A stretch of 64,000 nt of DNA, taken from NCBI GenBank assembly GCA_009693055.1, contig SHYA01000001.1:124001-188000 (forward strand), written 5' to 3'. Positions 16,243 to 24,467 of the stretch are shown here, piece after piece. Source of the stretch: Dehalococcoidia bacterium (GTDB taxonomy: Bacteria > Chloroflexota > Dehalococcoidia > Lucifugimonadales > SHYT01). The notes under the pieces are model-generated. The model was not told the DNA's origin and ran no database searches. It was given only the letters and a program-made list of their open reading frames with translations. Made by a program: the position numbers and the translations under genes. How positions within the stretch are numbered: the stretch's first letter is position 1; each line of letters opens with the position of its first letter.

Positions 16243-16491
16243 ATGACAACAACTAAGACAAGATTGGGCAAAGGTGGCAGAGTAGTCATTCCGGCCCAGT
16301 TCCGCAAGGCGCAAGGGCTGAATGAGGGCGACCACCTCCTGCTCATCGTAGAGGATGGGAGTTTGCGCCTGCTCACGGTCGCGCAAGCTATCAAAGAGGC
16401 CCAGGCGTTGGTGAGAAAGCTCAATCCAAAAGGCCGCCGCCTCTCAGAAGAGTTGCTTGCCGAGCGCCGCGCAGAGGCGGCCCGTGAGTGA
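16243..16491 (+). CDS. AbrB/SpoVT-type antitoxin
   Basis: 82 residues. The N-terminal swapped-hairpin domain is clear (TRLGKGGRVVIPAQFRKA, LNEGDHLLLIVEDG); the C-terminal helical tail would wrap the toxin. It overlaps the PIN toxin gene by 8 bp, the standard antitoxin-first order. Such pairs usually bind their own promoter, which would be the extended -10 at 16218. Confidence 0.85.
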   Translation: MTTTKTRLGKGGRVVIPAQFRKAQGLNEGDHLLLIVEDGSLRLLTVAQAIKEAQALVRKLNPKGRRLSEELLAERRAEAARE

Positions 16492-16867
16492 AGCGGTCCT
16501 GGACGCCTCCGCCGTCCTGGCCCTGCTGAATAACGAGCCGGGTGGTGACGCCGTCGCCGCCACCTTGCCTGAAGCCCTAATCAGCGCAGTCAACTACGCG
16601 GAGGTCGTTGGCAAGCTGGTAGACCTAGGAGGCGCGGAGCCTGCGATCCACGAAACGCTGGAAGGCCTTGGCATGCGGGTCATCCCTCTGGATGCGGAGC
16701 TCGCCTTCACCGCCGGGCTCCTACGCCGAGAAAGCCGGAAACTTTGCCTTTCCCTCGCGGATCGGTGCTGTCTGGCACTCGCACAGACGCGCCATCTGCC
16801 CGTCATGACCACTGACCGCGCCTGGCGGAGCCTCAAGCTGAACGTGGAGGTCCGGGTCCTCCGGTGA
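16484..16867 (+). CDS. PIN-domain toxin, VapC family
   Basis: 127 residues with the acidic PIN residues in place: D in LDASAVLALL, E in NYAEVVGKL, D in SLADRCCLALA and D in VMTTDRAW. Known relatives are Mg-dependent ribonucleases held inactive by the antitoxin. The GTG at 16484 lies inside GTGAGTGA, so its start overlaps the antitoxin stop. Its own stop overlaps the rdgB start by 4 bp, an unusual tight coupling of a toxin to a housekeeping gene. Confidence 0.85.
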   Translation: MSEAVLDASAVLALLNNEPGGDAVAATLPEALISAVNYAEVVGKLVDLGGAEPAIHETLEGLGMRVIPLDAELAFTAGLLRRESRKLCLSLADRCCLALAQTRHLPVMTTDRAWRSLKLNVEVRVLR

Positions 16868-17481
16868 GCACCCCCACCCTTCTCCTCGCCACTAGCAACC
16901 CCGGCAAGGTGCGCGAGCTCAGGGAGCTCCTCAAAGGTGCCCCCGTGCGCCTCGCCGGCCTCCAGGACGTGGGCATCACGCAGGACGTGGAGGAGACCGG
17001 CGCCACGTTTGAGGAGAACGCGCGCCTCAAGGCCGCCACGTACGCGCGCATCAGCGGCCTGTGGGCCCTCGCGGATGACTCCGGCCTGGAGGTGGACGCC
17101 CTCGGCGGCGAGCCGGGCGTGCACTCCAAGCGCTACGCCGGGCCGGACGCCTCCGACGCTGAGCGGGTGCAGTACCTCCTACGGAAGCTCCGCTCTGTCC
17201 CGTTGGAGCGCCGGCAGGCCCGCTTCCGCAGCGTCATCGCCATCGCCTCCCCGGAGGGGGTCCAGCGCATCGTGGAGGGGGAGTGCCGCGGCATCGTGGC
17301 GCTGGCGCCCAAGGGCGCCAGCGGATTCGACTACGACCCGGTCTTCTGGCTCCCCGAGCTAGACAAGACCATGGCTGAGCTATCTCTTGAGGAAAAGAAC
17401 CGCGTCAGCCACCGGAGCCGCTCGGCCACCAAGGCCGCCCAGGCCCTCCGCGAACTGGTTGAGCAGGGTGCCATGCGGTAA
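16864..17481 (+). CDS. rdgB: XTP/dITP diphosphatase (RdgB/HAM1)
   Basis: 205 residues. The N-terminal LLATSNPGKVRELRELL (usually TxNxxK), WALADDSGLEVDALGGEPGV and the GFDYDPVF motif are diagnostic. The enzyme removes deaminated purine nucleotides such as dITP and XTP. GTG start overlaps the toxin stop (GTGA). The last residues KAAQALRELVEQ match the family end, so length is normal. Confidence 0.93.
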   Translation: MSTPTLLLATSNPGKVRELRELLKGAPVRLAGLQDVGITQDVEETGATFEENARLKAATYARISGLWALADDSGLEVDALGGEPGVHSKRYAGPDASDAERVQYLLRKLRSVPLERRQARFRSVIAIASPEGVQRIVEGECRGIVALAPKGASGFDYDPVFWLPELDKTMAELSLEEKNRVSHRSRSATKAAQALRELVEQGAMR

Positions 17482-17520: not shown

Positions 17521-17533
17521 AGTGCGGAGAGGA

Positions 17534-18571
17534 ATGAGCACCATGCCGGCACTCAAAGACACGCTGGACCGCCCGCTACGGGACCTCCGCATCTCGGTCA
17601 CCGACCGGTGCAACTTCCGCTGCCCCTACTGCATGCCCGCCGAGATCTACGGCGAGCGGTACCAATTCCTCCCCCGCGACCAGCTCCTCACTTTTGAGGA
17701 GACGGCCCGCCTCGCCCGCGTCTTCGTCAAGCTGGGCGTCACCAAGCTGCGCCTCACCGGCGGCGAGCCGCTCGTCCGCGCCGACGTGGAGCAACTCGTC
17801 GCCATGCTGGCCGCGCTGGGCAAGAATCCCGAAGGGCACGCGCTGGACATCACGCTCACCACCAACGGCTACCTGCTGGAGCAGAAGGCGCAGGCGCTCA
17901 AGGACGCCGGCCTCCAGCGCATCACCGTCAGCCTGGACAGCCTCCGCCCCGACGTGTTCGCCCGGCTCAACGGCCGCAACTTCACGCCCGAGCGCGTCCT
18001 GGCCGGGATCCGCAAGGCCCAGCAGGTCGGCCTCACTCCCATCAAGCTCAACTGCGTCGCCGTCCGCGGCGTCAACGACGAGGACATCGTGGACCTCGCC
18101 CGCTTCGCCAGGGACAACGGCTGCATCATGCGCTTCATTGAGTACATGGACGTGGGCAACCTGAACCACTGGAAGATGGACCAGGTGGTGCCCGCCAGGG
18201 AGATCGTGGAGCGCATCACCGCCGTCTTCCCGCTGGAGCCCGCCGAGCCAAACTACAAGGGCGAGGTCGCCGAACGGTGGCGATACCGCGACGGCGCGAG
18301 CGAGCTTGGCGTCATCGCGTCCGTCACGCAGCCCTTCTGCCGCGACTGCACCCGCGCGCGCCTCACCACCGACGGCAAGCTGGTCACGTGCCTCTTCGCC
18401 TCCACCGGCGCAGACCTGCGCGGCCCCATGCGCTCCGGCGCCTCCGACGACGACCTAGAGGCGATCATCCGCCAGGTGTGGACCGTCCGCACCGACCGCT
18501 ACTCCGAGCTGCGCACCGCCATGACCCCCGCCACCCGCAAGAAGATCGAGATGTTCCAGATCGGGGGCTAG
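17534..18571 (+). CDS. moaA: GTP 3',8-cyclase (MoaA)
   Basis: Radical SAM enzyme for the first step of molybdopterin synthesis. The N-terminal cluster motif CNFRCPYC, the SAM-binding TGGEPL, the C-terminal cluster set CRDC...C (SVTQPFCRDCTRARLTTDG) and the terminal GG needed for catalysis are all present. 345 residues from ATG 17534; ATG 17543 has somewhat better spacing to GGAGAGG. The product is passed to MoaC, encoded in fusion form 205 bp downstream. The stop codon begins repeat A. Confidence 0.95.
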   Translation: MSTMPALKDTLDRPLRDLRISVTDRCNFRCPYCMPAEIYGERYQFLPRDQLLTFEETARLARVFVKLGVTKLRLTGGEPLVRADVEQLVAMLAALGKNPEGHALDITLTTNGYLLEQKAQALKDAGLQRITVSLDSLRPDVFARLNGRNFTPERVLAGIRKAQQVGLTPIKLNCVAVRGVNDEDIVDLARFARDNGCIMRFIEYMDVGNLNHWKMDQVVPAREIVERITAVFPLEPAEPNYKGEVAERWRYRDGASELGVIASVTQPFCRDCTRARLTTDGKLVTCLFASTGADLRGPMRSGASDDDLEAIIRQVWTVRTDRYSELRTAMTPATRKKIEMFQIGG

Positions 18572-18656
18572 CAGGGCCGTGGCCCTGCACCCCTCTCGGC
18601 GTTTGGAACGAGCTTTCTGCCCGCTCAACGCCTTTCGCCCGATTGCCTACCGCTCA
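18569..18656 (+). repeat. ~90-bp repeat A, copy 2 (starts at the moaA stop codon)
   Basis: TAGCAGGGCCGTGGCCCTGC, then GGCGTTTGGAACGAGCTTTC and on to CCGCTCA. It aligns over its whole length with 9855-9765 (minus strand). A repeat B piece (CATCCTGAGCCTGTCGAAGG) follows directly at 18655. Confidence 0.75.
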
Positions 18657-18685
18657 TCCTGAGCCTGTCGAAGGATGTCATTTCG
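18651..18685. repeat. REP-like dispersed repeat B
   Basis: CTCATCCTGAGCCTGTCGAA followed by GGATGTCATTTCGAG. CATCCT and AGGATG form a short inverted repeat around the centre. Confidence 0.5.
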
Positions 18686-18761: not shown

Positions 18762-18767
18762 TATAAT
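18762..18767 (+). promoter_or_regulatory. Consensus -10, 9 nt before the rnhA-moaC start
   Basis: TATAAT followed by GACCGAACT and ATG 18777. The start of transcription should fall 0-3 nt before the ATG. No Shine-Dalgarno sequence is present, so a leaderless message is likely. Confidence 0.5.
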
Positions 18768-18776
18768 GACCGAACT

Positions 18777-19703
18777 ATGCCCATCAGCATCTACATCGAC
18801 GGCGCGTGCAACATGCAGACGCGCCAGGGCGGCTGGGGCGCCGTGCTGGAGCAGGATGGCCTCCATGTCCACCTCTCCGCCTCGGAGCACAAGACGACTA
18901 ACCAGCGCATGGAGGTCGCCGCCGCCATCAACGCGCTGGAGGCTACGCCACCCGGCAGCACCGTCACCGTCACCTCGGACAGCGAGTACCTGGTCAAGAC
19001 GATGACGGCAGGCTGGAAGCGGAAGGCCAACACCGACCTGTGGAGTATTCTGGACACACTCGCCGCCGCCCGCCAGGTCACCTGGCACTGGGTCCGCGGC
19101 CACGAGGGTCACGACGGCAACGAGGAGGCGAACGCCCTCGCCCAGTGGCGTGCCGGCACCGGCCCCAAGCCGGGCCCCTGCCCGCTGGAGCAGTCCGCAA
19201 CGCCTGAACAAGCACCCGCGCTCTCGCCCGCCCGCTTGACCCACCTGGACGAACAGGGCCGCGCCGCCATGGTGGACGTCAGCGCCAAGCCGGAGACCGA
19301 GCGCGAAGCGATCGCCAAAGGCGCCGTCGTCATGCGCCCAGAGACGCTCGCGCTCATCCGCGCGGGCCAGGTCAAGAAGGGGGACGTCCTCGCCACCGCA
19401 CGCATCGCGGGCGTCATGGCCGCCAAGCAGACCGCAAGCCTCATCCCCCTCTGCCACCCCCTCCCCGTCTCCTACGTCGGCGTGGACCTTGAGCTGGACG
19501 AGCGCACCAGCTCCGTGCTCATCACCGCCACCGCGCGCACCGTGGGGCGCACCGGCGTAGAGATGGAGGCGCTCACCGCCGTCACCGTGGCCGCGCTTAC
19601 CGTGTACGACATGTGCAAGTCCGCAGACCGCGCCATGCACATCCAGGACGTGCGCCTCGTCGCCAAGCGCGGTGGCAAGAGCGGCGACCTGCTCTTGGAG
19701 TAG
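18777..19703 (+). CDS. Fusion protein: RNase HI + cyclic pyranopterin monophosphate synthase (MoaC)
   Basis: 308 residues. Residues 1-125 are RNase HI: D8 (YIDGAC), E46 (NQRMEVAAA), D68 (TSDSEYL) and H112 (RGHEGH) are present, but the fourth carboxylate position (Asp134 in E. coli) is N119 (GNEEANALA). A Pro/Glu/Ala linker of about 28 residues follows. Residues 153-308 are a complete MoaC: CHPLP at 226-230, the E262/E264 pair (VEMEALTAV), and D278/K281 (YDMCKSADR). MoaC makes cPMP from the MoaA product. No internal start with a ribosome site is seen at the linker, so one polypeptide is expected. ATG 18777 matches the RNase HI N-terminus. Confidence 0.92.
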
Positions 19704-20720: not shown

Positions 20721-21572
20721 CTACCGCTCTATCGGCGTCCCGACCGCACTCCCCCACTCCGTCCACGAGCCGTCGTAGTTCCGCACCTTCGGATAGCCGA
20801 GCAGCTCGCGCAGCACAAGCCACGTGTGGCTTGAGCGTTCCCCGATGCGGCAGTAGGCGATCACCTCCTTGTCGGGTGTAACGCCCTTTGCCTTGTACAG
20901 CTCTTCCAGCTCGCCGCGGGGCTTGAAGGTGCCGTCCTCCTTGACCACGCTGCCCCAGGGGATGTTGGCAGCGCCGGGGATGTGCCCACCACGCTGAGCG
21001 CCCTCCTGCGGCAGGTTCTCCGGCGCAAGCAACTCGCCGCTGTACTCGCGCGGGGAACGCACGTCCACGAGCGCGAACTTCGTGCCGGCCCCCACCGCCT
21101 TCTGCACGGAGTCACGCAGCGCCCGCACCGAGGTGTCCGGCGTCTTGGCCGTGTACTTCGCCGCGCTGTAGTGAGGGACGTCTCTTGTCGTCGCCCGCTT
21201 CTCCGCCAGCCACTTCGTGCGCCCGCCGTTCATCAGCTTCAGCCGCGCGCGGGGCTGCCCGTAGTAGCTCGCCAGCCAGTACGCCCACGCCGCAAACCAG
21301 TTGTTGTTGTCCCCGTAGAACACGATCGTGGCGTCGTTGTCTATCCCCGCCTGGCCGCACAGCTGCTCAAACGCCACGTTTGTGAGGACGTCCCGGCTCG
21401 GGTGGCCCTGAAGCTGCGTCCGCCAGTTCCAGCCCACCGCGCCAGGGATGTGCCCCTGCTCGTAGGCGGAGGTGTCCACATCAACCTCCACAAGCCGCAC
21501 CTTGGGGTCACCCAGGTGGTCCTGCACCCACTGGGTCTCAACAAGCACGTCGTTGGCGTACTGCGTGGTCAC
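20721..21572 (-). CDS. Two-domain rhodanese (thiosulfate / 3-mercaptopyruvate sulfurtransferase)
   Basis: 283 residues with two rhodanese repeats, each showing the LVEVD / LVDVRSPREYSG start and the HIPGA loop. The active cysteine is C241 in CRIGERS; the CRxGxR loop points to thiosulfate-type rather than mercaptopyruvate (CGSGVT) activity. GTG start with AAAGGAGGGGG upstream. It lies 48 bp after the DsrE-like gene in a sulfur-handling run and would supply persulfide sulfur. Confidence 0.9.
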   Translation of the reverse strand: MTTQYANDVLVETQWVQDHLGDPKVRLVEVDVDTSAYEQGHIPGAVGWNWRTQLQGHPSRDVLTNVAFEQLCGQAGIDNDATIVFYGDNNNWFAAWAYWLASYYGQPRARLKLMNGGRTKWLAEKRATTRDVPHYSAAKYTAKTPDTSVRALRDSVQKAVGAGTKFALVDVRSPREYSGELLAPENLPQEGAQRGGHIPGAANIPWGSVVKEDGTFKPRGELEELYKAKGVTPDKEVIAYCRIGERSSHTWLVLRELLGYPKVRNYDGSWTEWGSAVGTPIER

Positions 21573-21620
21573 TAGCCCCCTCCTTTATCGGTTTGCGTGT
21601 GCTGCACAGCTTACTACGGA

Positions 21621-22163
21621 TTAGATGAACAGCGTCACCTGCGCCTTGGAGGCGTACTCTAGGAAGGCGGCCGCACCCTCAATATCCACGCCGTCAATCA
21701 GGTCCTCCTCCTTAACCCCCATGACGCCCATCGTGGTGGAGCAGGCAATCAGCTTGACGCCCGACTGCTGGCACACCTCCAGCAGCTCCTGCACGGTGGG
21801 CATCTTCTGCCTACCCATCATCCGCTTGAGCATCCAGGTCGCCACAAACGTCATCCCCGGTATCGCGCCAAGGAAGTTCGGCATGGGGACCGGCGCCGCC
21901 GGGTTCGCCAGCGGGGCGACCTGAAGATTCCTGTTCTTCCTCTTGTGCAGCGTATTGAGGCCGTAGAACGTGAAGAACACCGCGCACTCCATCCCCATGG
22001 ACGCCGCAGAGCTCGCCAGGATCAGCGGCGGGTAGACCATGTCCAGCGTGCCCTTGGAGGCCACAATCGCCACGCGCTTCGGCTCGCCCTCGTGCGCTTC
22101 CTTGTGCAGCGTGGCAAACAGCTTCAGGTTCTCTTCCAGCAGCCGTTCTCTGGTCGTCACCAT
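21621..22163 (-). CDS. DsrE/DsrF-like sulfur carrier family protein
   Basis: 180 residues. The pattern RVAIVASKGTLDMVYPPLILASSAASMGMECAVFFTFYGL, split here by position, is that of DsrE-family proteins near TusA (the long motif spans roughly residues 27-66). Later CQQSGVKLIACSTTMGVMGV contains the conserved Cys. Known relatives transfer persulfide sulfur with TusA and rhodanese, and both partners are adjacent. ATG 22163 is only 2 bp after tusA, so translation is coupled. Confidence 0.85.
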   Translation of the reverse strand: MVTTRERLLEENLKLFATLHKEAHEGEPKRVAIVASKGTLDMVYPPLILASSAASMGMECAVFFTFYGLNTLHKRKNRNLQVAPLANPAAPVPMPNFLGAIPGMTFVATWMLKRMMGRQKMPTVQELLEVCQQSGVKLIACSTTMGVMGVKEEDLIDGVDIEGAAAFLEYASKAQVTLFI

Positions 22164-22165
22164 GA

Positions 22166-22411
22166 CTACCGCGCTCCCTTCCTCAGCAGGAACACAAACT
22201 GCGCTCCCAGCTGCTCCGCGCTGAGCAACTCGTGCCCGCCGATGCGGGCGAAGCTGGGGATGTCCGCCTTTGAGCCCCGGTCCGTCGCAATGAGCTTCAT
22301 CACCTGTCCAGGACGCAGCTTGTCCATCCCCTGCCTGGCCTTGATCACCGGCACCGGGCAAAGGGTTGTGGACGCGTCCACAATCAGGTCGGGGGTTACG
22401 TTTGTGCTCAT
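22166..22411 (-). CDS. TusA family sulfur carrier
   Basis: 81 residues with the CPVPVIKAR motif (CPxP), the persulfide-carrying Cys at residue 18, and the DRGSKADIPSFAR region. It hands sulfur between rhodanese, DsrE-like proteins and acceptors. ATG 22411 has AAGGAG upstream. A large palindrome with an FNR-like core (22443-22468) precedes it. Confidence 0.9.
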   Translation of the reverse strand: MSTNVTPDLIVDASTTLCPVPVIKARQGMDKLRPGQVMKLIATDRGSKADIPSFARIGGHELLSAEQLGAQFVFLLRKGAR

Positions 22412-22442
22412 GGAATCGTCTCCTTACGTCTAGGTAAAGCAA

Positions 22443-22468
22443 AGGCCCTTGATCATCATCAAGGGCCT
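22443..22468. promoter_or_regulatory. Palindrome with perfect FNR/CRP-like core upstream of tusA
   Basis: An 11-bp perfect inverted repeat with a CATC loop. The core TTGATCATCATCAA (22449-22462) equals the FNR consensus TTGAT-N4-ATCAA. As RNA it would also form a stable hairpin followed on the minus strand by TTTGCTTT, so it may instead be a terminator between the cysteine synthase gene and tusA. Confidence 0.5.
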
Positions 22469-22561
22469 GGGGACACGCGCGAAGCCGTTCTTAACCGTCC
22501 CCAAGCCGGCACCGTGTACACATGCGGCCAGGACCGCGCTCCCACTTCCCTGTCCTCATGG

Positions 22562-23551
22562 CTACCACCAGACCTTCCCCTTGACCTCGCGTTCCAGCTC
22601 GGCGTAGTCGCGGGTCCACAGGTTGGTGCTCAGGTACTTCCAGCCGCCGTCCGCCAGCAAGCACACGATGGTGCCGGAGCGCATCCGGCGCGCCACTCGC
22701 AGCGCCGCAGCCACAACCGCCCCGGACGAGATGCCCGCAAAGATCCCCTCCTGCTCCGTCAGCGCCCGGGTGTACAGGAACGCCTCCTTGCTCTCTATGA
22801 TGATCCGCGAGTCCAGAAGGCTCTCGTCCAGGATCGGGGGGATGAACCCCTCCTCCAGGCTCCTCAGACCCATGATGAAGTCGTCCGGATGCGGCACGAC
22901 CGCCACGATCTTGGTGTTTGGGTTGTGCTCCCTCAGGCGGCGAGCCACCCCCATCAGCGTGCCACCCGTCCCCAACCCGGCCACGAAGGCATCCACCTGC
23001 GGAAGCGCCGCCAGCACCTCAGGGCCCGTCGTCTCATAGTGCGTCTGCGGGTTCGCCGGATTGCCGTACTGGTACGGCATGAAATACTTGCCCGGCTCCT
23101 TGGCCAGAAGCTCCTGCGCGACCACGATGGCGTAGTTGGTGCCGCGCCGCCCGTCGGAAAACACCACCTCGGCCCCAAACGCCTTCAGCAGCTGGGTCCG
23201 CTCCTCGCTCACGCTCTCGGGCATCACCACCTTTAGCCGGTACCCCTTGACCTTGCACACCATCGCCAGCCCGATGCCGGTGTTGCCGCTCGTAGGCTCC
23301 AGCACCACCTTGTCTTTGGTCAGCGTTCCGTCCGCCTCCGCTCGCTCAATCATGGACTTGGCGATGCGGTCCTTCACGCTCCCGGTGGGGTTCTGCCCCT
23401 CCAGCTTGGCGTAGACCCGCACCGCTGGGTTGGGGCTTAGCCGCGTCAGCCGGACCATCGGCGTATTGCCGATGGCGTCCAGGATGCTCTCCTTGGCGCC
23501 GCGGAGTGTGGCGTCAAGCCCTGAGGGAAGCTGGACCTTACCCTGGCTCAC
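22562..23551 (-). CDS. Cysteine synthase family protein (PLP-dependent)
   Basis: 329 residues. IGNTPMVRL at the start, the PLP lysine in TGSVKDRIA, the EPTSGNTGIGLAM loop and the GTGGTLMGV phosphate-binding loop are intact. It forms cysteine from an activated serine (O-acetyl- or O-phosphoserine) and a sulfide donor. The variant sequence DGGWKYLST near the end resembles CysM-type enzymes that accept sulfur from a protein carrier. The neighbouring E1-like gene supports that, but no carrier gene is seen here. GTG 23551 chosen because longer frames overlap the upstream gene. Confidence 0.88.
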   Translation of the reverse strand: MSQGKVQLPSGLDATLRGAKESILDAIGNTPMVRLTRLSPNPAVRVYAKLEGQNPTGSVKDRIAKSMIERAEADGTLTKDKVVLEPTSGNTGIGLAMVCKVKGYRLKVVMPESVSEERTQLLKAFGAEVVFSDGRRGTNYAIVVAQELLAKEPGKYFMPYQYGNPANPQTHYETTGPEVLAALPQVDAFVAGLGTGGTLMGVARRLREHNPNTKIVAVVPHPDDFIMGLRSLEEGFIPPILDESLLDSRIIIESKEAFLYTRALTEQEGIFAGISSGAVVAAALRVARRMRSGTIVCLLADGGWKYLSTNLWTRDYAELEREVKGKVWW

Positions 23552-23565
23552 AAGCCCGCCTTGCC

Positions 23566-24399
23566 TTAGGAGTGCGCCGCTGCGGCGGATGGCGTAAGGC
23601 CGCAGAACACCTCGTAATCGATCAGTTCCGTCACCGTCGGGTGGTCGCCGCAGAGCGGGCACTCCGGGTTCCGGCGAAGCCGCATCTCGCGGAACTCCAT
23701 GCTGAGTCCCTCGATGATGAGCAGCCGTGAGGCCAGCGAATCGCCGATGCCCATCAACAGCTTGAGCGTCTCCACCGCCTGGATGCTGCCAACCAGGCCG
23801 GTCATGGCGCCCAGCACACCCGCCTCCGCGCAGCTGGGAACCGAGCCCGGAGGGGGTGGCTGTGGGAAGAGGCAGCGGTAGCAGCCCTTGCCCGGGATAA
23901 ACACCGTCGCCTGCCCGTCAAAAATCAGGATGCTCCCGTCCACCAGCGGTTTACCGGCGAGATAGCATGCGTCGTTGACGAGGTAGCGTGAGGGAAAATT
24001 GTCCGCACCGTTCACCACCACGTCGTACTGCGGGATGATGTCCATCGCGTTTTCCGATGTGAGGCGCGTCTGGTGGGTCACCACCTTGGTATCAGGGTTG
24101 TACGCCAGCATCGTCTTCTTGGCCGACTCAACCTTTGGGCGGCCCACGTCCGCGTCGTGGTGGAGGATCTGCCGCTGGAGGTTGGAGAGGTCCACGGTGT
24201 CAAAATCCACAAGCCCGATCGTACCCACGCCCGCCAAAGCCAAGTACACCGCGGACGGAGATCCAAGCCCGCCTGCCCCAACGATAAGCACCTTGGAGCC
24301 GAGGAGCTTACGTTGCCCCTTGCTTCCCACCACCGGCATGATGATGTGCCGGCTGTACCGCTTGACCTGCCGTGGACTGAGCTTTATCTCTTGTACCAT
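23566..24399 (-). CDS. E1-like adenylyltransferase (ThiF/MoeB/MoeZ family)
   Basis: 277 residues. RYSRHIIMPVVGSKGQRKL, the ATP-binding GAGGLGSPSAVYLALAGVG, the Arg finger region and DNFPSRYLVND are family hallmarks; CYRCLFP and CPLCGD form the zinc site. It adenylates the C-terminal Gly of a ubiquitin-like sulfur carrier. It lacks the C-terminal rhodanese domain of MoeZ, but a rhodanese gene is in the same operon. ATG 24399 follows GGAG; 14 bp separate its stop from the cysteine synthase start. Confidence 0.9.
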   Translation of the reverse strand: MVQEIKLSPRQVKRYSRHIIMPVVGSKGQRKLLGSKVLIVGAGGLGSPSAVYLALAGVGTIGLVDFDTVDLSNLQRQILHHDADVGRPKVESAKKTMLAYNPDTKVVTHQTRLTSENAMDIIPQYDVVVNGADNFPSRYLVNDACYLAGKPLVDGSILIFDGQATVFIPGKGCYRCLFPQPPPPGSVPSCAEAGVLGAMTGLVGSIQAVETLKLLMGIGDSLASRLLIIEGLSMEFREMRLRRNPECPLCGDHPTVTELIDYEVFCGLTPSAAAAHS

Positions 24400-24467
24400 G
24401 TCACGCTCCGAGGAATACGAAACCATGCCTGCACCGCGTCAGTCGCGGGGCCACACGCTAGCGCGTC

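Follow-up and report, generated by a model that had tools for sequence, protein, structure and literature searches.

The closest described systems are the RNase HI-CobC proteins of Actinomycetales (Rv2228c, MSMEG_4305 and SCO2299), in which both activities are found in one chain (PMC7466739). Full-length Rv2228c is faster than its isolated N-terminal RNase domain, the two domains of SCO2299 act independently, and removal of CobC in M. smegmatis hardly mattered in vivo, the authors concluding that genetic drift was at work (PMC7466739). Thus, the joining of RNase HI to an enzyme of cofactor synthesis has a precedent. Some accepted RNases HI also lack the basic protrusion, or handle (PMC9719913), and MoaC is hexameric in solved structures (PMC3602415). 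A literature search found no paper on an RNase H-MoaC fusion.

We analysed such a fusion in a window of 64,000 nucleotides, the whole stretch examined here, taken from a Dehalococcoidia bacterium (contig SHYA01000001.1). The features of the locus are collected in Table 1. The original prediction of an RNase HI fused to MoaC in one polypeptide was borne out: translation of the gene gave 308 amino acids without an internal stop, and both halves matched their domain families. The RNase_H model of Pfam was matched with an E-value of 1.6e-30. In the C-terminal half, Pfam MoaC was found at residues 165–300 (E 2e-58) and NCBIfam TIGR00581 (moaC) at residues 154–302, the latter with 210.6 bits against an equivalog cut-off of 141.5, and this half aligned with E. 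coli MoaC (1ekr) with an E-value of 5e-49. For the NCBIfam equivalog PRK00203 (ribonuclease HI) the protein scored 106.8 bits, below the cut-off of 160. The RNase H domain was modelled by AlphaFold2 with a pLDDT of 95.9, and a PDB search with the model matched E. coli RNase HI (E 1.5e-16, TMq 0.90). The full-length model contained two confident domains and a linker with pLDDT below 50 at residues 135–153. Together with the low pTM of 0.49, the disordered linker suggests that the two domains have no fixed arrangement.

Table 1. Features of the RNase HI-MoaC locus and its surroundings (window positions)
Feature	Position	Strand	Basis or remark
RNase HI-MoaC fusion gene	18777..19703	+	single open frame, 308 codons plus stop
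RNase HI domain, residues 4-123, handle-less type	18786..19145	+	Pfam PF00075
Linker, residues 124-152 (~29 residues)	19146..19232	+	low pLDDT; internal-start scan
MoaC domain, residues 153-308	19233..19700	+	Pfam, NCBIfam, E. coli 1ekr match
D8 codon (E. coli D10)	18798..18800	+	residue alignment
E46 codon (E. coli E48)	18912..18914	+	residue alignment
D68 codon (E. coli D70)	18978..18980	+	residue alignment
N119 codon (E. coli D134, fourth carboxylate)	19131..19133	+	residue alignment
TATAAT, 9 bp before ATG	18762..18767	+	same spacing in G002
moaA (radical SAM plus Mob_synth_C), first step of MoaC's pathway	17522..18571	+	205 bp upstream of fusion gene
rdgB/HAM1 family NTP pyrophosphatase, conserved neighbour	16864..17481	+	domain match
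Repeat-like element CTCATCCTGAGCCTGTCGAAGGATG between moaA and fusion gene	18653..18677	+	no second copy in window

Alignment with E. coli RNase HI placed D8, E46, D68, H109 and N115 at the positions of D10, E48, D70, H124 and N130. The fourth carboxylate, D134, is replaced by N119, as had been predicted; at this position the 101 handle-less fused proteins carry Asp in 69 cases, Asn in 27 (the window protein included), His in three and a gap in two. A literature search found no paper reporting activity of a D134N enzyme. Among all 105 fused proteins, D10 is kept in 103 and E48 and D70 in every one. The basic handle is absent from the window RNase H, as it is from the whole handle-less clade, its substrate loop (N16 loop) is changed from NPGPGG to QTRQGG, and the net charge of this half is −5. 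The catalytic positions of MoaC were predicted to be intact, and all seven residues examined (K201, K217, H227, E262, E264, D278 and K281) correspond to K51, K67, H77, E112, E114, D128 and K131 of E. coli; the tested positions are identical in 129 of 129 loci.

A consensus scan found no −35 box to go with the TATAAT hexamer. From the position of the hexamer, which is the same in genome G002, we would guess that the fusion gene perhaps has a near-leaderless promoter. A separate translation start for MoaC was considered and rejected, as the window linker offers just a TTG without a Shine-Dalgarno sequence; an in-frame start with a Shine-Dalgarno sequence of four or more bases is likewise absent in 83 of 104 fused genes. 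Since the junction in the window lacks an internal start with such backing, a single polypeptide is expected.

The gene just upstream of the fusion is moaA, as the original prediction had stated. The order in the window, rdgB-moaA-fusion, is the usual rdgB-moaA-rnhA/moaC: among 50 loci for which 600 or more bases of upstream sequence were available, 35 have a moaA match upstream, mostly directly so, and rdgB often stands before moaA. Upstream of rdgB, two small open reading frames with AbrB-like and PIN-like translations (16243–16867) resemble by eye a toxin-antitoxin pair of the VapBC type. On the minus strand, the interval 20724–24426 encodes rhodanese, TusA, a PALP-family (cysteine-synthase-like) protein and ThiF/MoeB, a sulfur-transfer cluster adjoining the moa genes. 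At another locus (L322:1043–1923), moaD-like and moaE frames adjoin, with a low-complexity, repeat-like stretch of the PFGKLRAG type in frame between them.

The genome of the window comprises 1.51 Mb and is 94% complete. The fusion is the only copy of either enzyme found in this 94%-complete genome, a search for a second rnhA or moaC having returned none; one RNase HII and one MoaE are present. That related genomes might always keep two separate genes did not hold. In a sample of 59 genomes of the order, the window's own included, most relatives are fused when tallied from the listed coordinates and frames: 39 are fused, 16 have adjacent genes on the same strand, one has the genes apart (G007), one has MoaC only and two gave no match. 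Outside the order, the fusion also occurs in other families of the class. For detailed analysis, 129 rnhA-moaC loci picked because they are fused or adjacent were parsed, of which 105 are fused (the window and 104 others, with linkers of 6 to 75 residues, median 23) and 24 are separate, the genes of the latter still being adjacent and co-oriented. At least one named fused record (JACQTX010000010.1) was among the matches listed in a search of genome contigs. Across Chloroflexota, the architecture recurs in Dehalococcoidia, and no full-length match was listed among 340 genomes outside the class; this search was ranked by E-value, so that close fusions would have shown, whereas it could have overlooked a fusion whose RNase H is highly divergent. 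The RNase HI and MoaC genes lie apart, wherever both coordinates are listed, in those Dehalococcoidia families that lack the fusion (for example G298, with the genes at C1:288900 and 1682777, G314 and G405). Clearly, the fusion is a recurrent arrangement and no lone oddity.

Members of the class with genomes of 1.4–1.9 Mb have 20–33 reductive dehalogenase matches each. Abundant reductive dehalogenases are known for Dehalococcoides and Dehalogenimonas, which points to Dehalococcoidia as the class in question.

A tree of the RNases H, built with the handle columns removed, united the handle-less ones in one clade of 111 (SH-aLRT 98), outside of which fall the handle-bearing ones, including free second copies. 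Both lineages stand before moaC and both contain fused proteins. A single clade of all fused RNases H was rejected by the AU test (p 0.0002, 56-row subset), showing that the fusion arose at least twice. For the four handle-type fusions, a single event was compatible with the same subset (p 0.32), and one or two events both fit. Within the handle-less lineage, families f14, f18, f34 and f41 each hold fused as well as separate pairs, so that fusion or fission must have recurred there. An exchange of the RNase H type in place beside moaC was also considered; a first MoaC tree pointed to nine such changes, and the idea was dropped because a better score was obtained for a tree that kept the handle-less rows together in one clade.

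Handle-less RNases HI are also encoded on viral contigs (L242 and others), with up to 45% identity to the window domain. A further arrangement was seen at L232:1084–2586 (also in G097, L233, and G098, L234), where an open reading frame of 500 amino acids separates moaA from an RNase HI-MoaC fusion of the handle type. By eye, this frame comprises two degenerate RNase H-like repeats and an intact C-terminal RNase HI, and the gap between moaA and moaC holds four RNase H-like units; Pfam supports two RNase_H stretches within the frame.

Three loci of genus g8 in family f6 (L157, L167 and L239; genomes G044, G173 and G007) form a series. In G044 and G173 the fused RNase H is dead, with D10A and loss of H124 and of the D134 region (124–134), and each genome carries a second, canonical RNase HI. 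The dN/dS of the dead domain is 0.057, a value from one near-saturated pair. G007 has a plain rdgB-moaA-moaC cluster without an RNase H domain, its canonical RNase HI being encoded on a different contig. This agrees with the prediction that RNase HI is the intruder in the moa context, as does the distance between the two genes in the compared families of Dehalococcoidia that lack the fusion.

For fused pairs with a computable dS, dN/dS was 0.04–0.37 for RNase H and 0.03–0.21 for MoaC, which indicates that both halves are under purifying selection. In the window's own family the RNase H half evolves faster, with 0.34–0.37 compared with 0.13–0.21 for MoaC.

Taken together, the gene most probably encodes a bifunctional enzyme that arose by repeated in-frame fusion of neighbouring genes and is probably hexameric through MoaC; we put the probability of this reading at roughly 70%. 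The N-terminal half would cut the RNA of RNA:DNA hybrids by a two-metal site formed by D8, E46 and D68, with N119, and the C-terminal half would convert the MoaA product to cyclic pyranopterin monophosphate. The halves are predicted to fold independently on a flexible linker, and MoaC is expected to form its usual hexamer, which would then display as many as six RNase H domains. Fusion of genes standing side by side and in the same orientation within an rdgB-moaA-rnhA-moaC cluster would have produced the gene, at least twice. However, the window RNase H combines D134N with an altered substrate loop, a missing handle and a net charge of −5, its dN/dS within the family (about 0.35) exceeds that of MoaC, and two relatives retain a fused RNase H with D10A. 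Because these relatives possess a second RNase HI and still keep the dead half, the domain might be mainly non-enzymatic and kept for nucleic-acid binding or for the stability or assembly of MoaC. The low dN/dS of this half and the position of the window protein in the same sub-clade, with its altered loop, fit such a role, which we nevertheless consider unlikely: all fused proteins retain E48 and D70 and the remaining 103, the window protein among them, also D10, no RNase HI besides the fusion was found in the genome of the window, the low ratio comes from the single near-saturated pair, and G007 of the same genus does without the domain. An assembly or frameshift artefact that joined two genes might be suspected, as some relatives have two genes separated by a stop, but its chance is negligible: in 104 other loci, spread over many families, the frame is likewise open throughout, and both halves are under purifying selection.

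A more specific form of the bifunctional reading couples the two functions, in that oligomeric MoaC would give avidity for hybrids and offset the missing handle. This is a tentative idea that we rather doubt. Among moaC-linked RNases H, fusion is seen in 101 of the 111 without a handle and in 4 of the 18 with one (Fisher p 2e-9, kinship ignored), and Rv2228c also lacks the protrusion and is slowed when its N-terminal domain is isolated (PMC7466739). When kinship is considered, however, only two well-supported independent pairs are left, which is not significant; ten handle-less RNases H are unfused, and the loss of CobC in M. smegmatis had little effect in vivo (PMC7466739). Basic charge as a substitute for the handle found no support, neither MoaC nor the linker being basic on average. 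Further still, it seems rather improbable that MoaC acts as a hexameric scaffold, and possibly as a sensor of GTP or cofactor precursor, for the only RNase HI detected in these bacteria, tying hybrid removal to molybdenum-cofactor synthesis and replacing the lost handle. A resistance to base analogues that depends on the molybdenum cofactor has been described (PMC1173102). RdgB, the cofactor and RNase HI might together guard DNA from non-canonical purines or ribonucleotides, with the fusion fixing their co-expression. The conserved rdgB-moaA-rnhA/moaC order would fit, but gene clustering by itself may explain the link. Since RNase HI has, to our knowledge, no part in the base-analogue response, we regard this explanation as very unlikely.

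E. coli RNase HI (RnhA) shares the fold and D10, E48, D70, H124 and N130 with the window protein, which differs in lacking the handle (E. coli ~80–97), in carrying Asn for D134 and a changed N16 loop, and in having MoaC at its C-terminus. With E. coli MoaC (1ekr; TIGR00581) the second half shares a complete domain and all catalytic residues examined, but the window protein has an RNase HI attached N-terminally. MoaC also occurs in the fused proteins MoaC/MoaB (PRK03604), MoaC/MobA (PRK14500) and MoaC-MOSC (PRK14499); judged by their NCBIfam names, the partners there are cofactor-pathway or MOSC domains and none is an RNase H, and the window protein scores below the cut-offs of all three. Annotation that assumes a single-domain MoaC or RNase HI will misname the fusion genes.

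The RNase HI-CobC proteins resemble the window protein in their N-terminal RNase HI, variable linker and cofactor-biosynthesis enzyme, and Rv2228c also in the absence of a basic protrusion (PMC7466739); they differ in their C-terminal partner, which is CobC there and MoaC here. A profile of the Dehalococcoidia RNases H scored E. coli RNase HI with ~140 bits and Rv2228c with 48 bits. This places the Dehalococcoidia enzymes closer to the RnhA lineage, and their fusion looks separate. The separate origins, and the fused, adjacent, dead and missing states in close relatives, provide material to ask whether such a fusion is neutral or selected. Cofactor enzymes of two unrelated kinds, CobC and MoaC, are now known as fusion partners of RNase HI, with handle-less RNases in both cases, and as the RNase H of Rv2228c is only distantly related by sequence, the two groups seem to have lost the handle and gained a cofactor enzyme in parallel.
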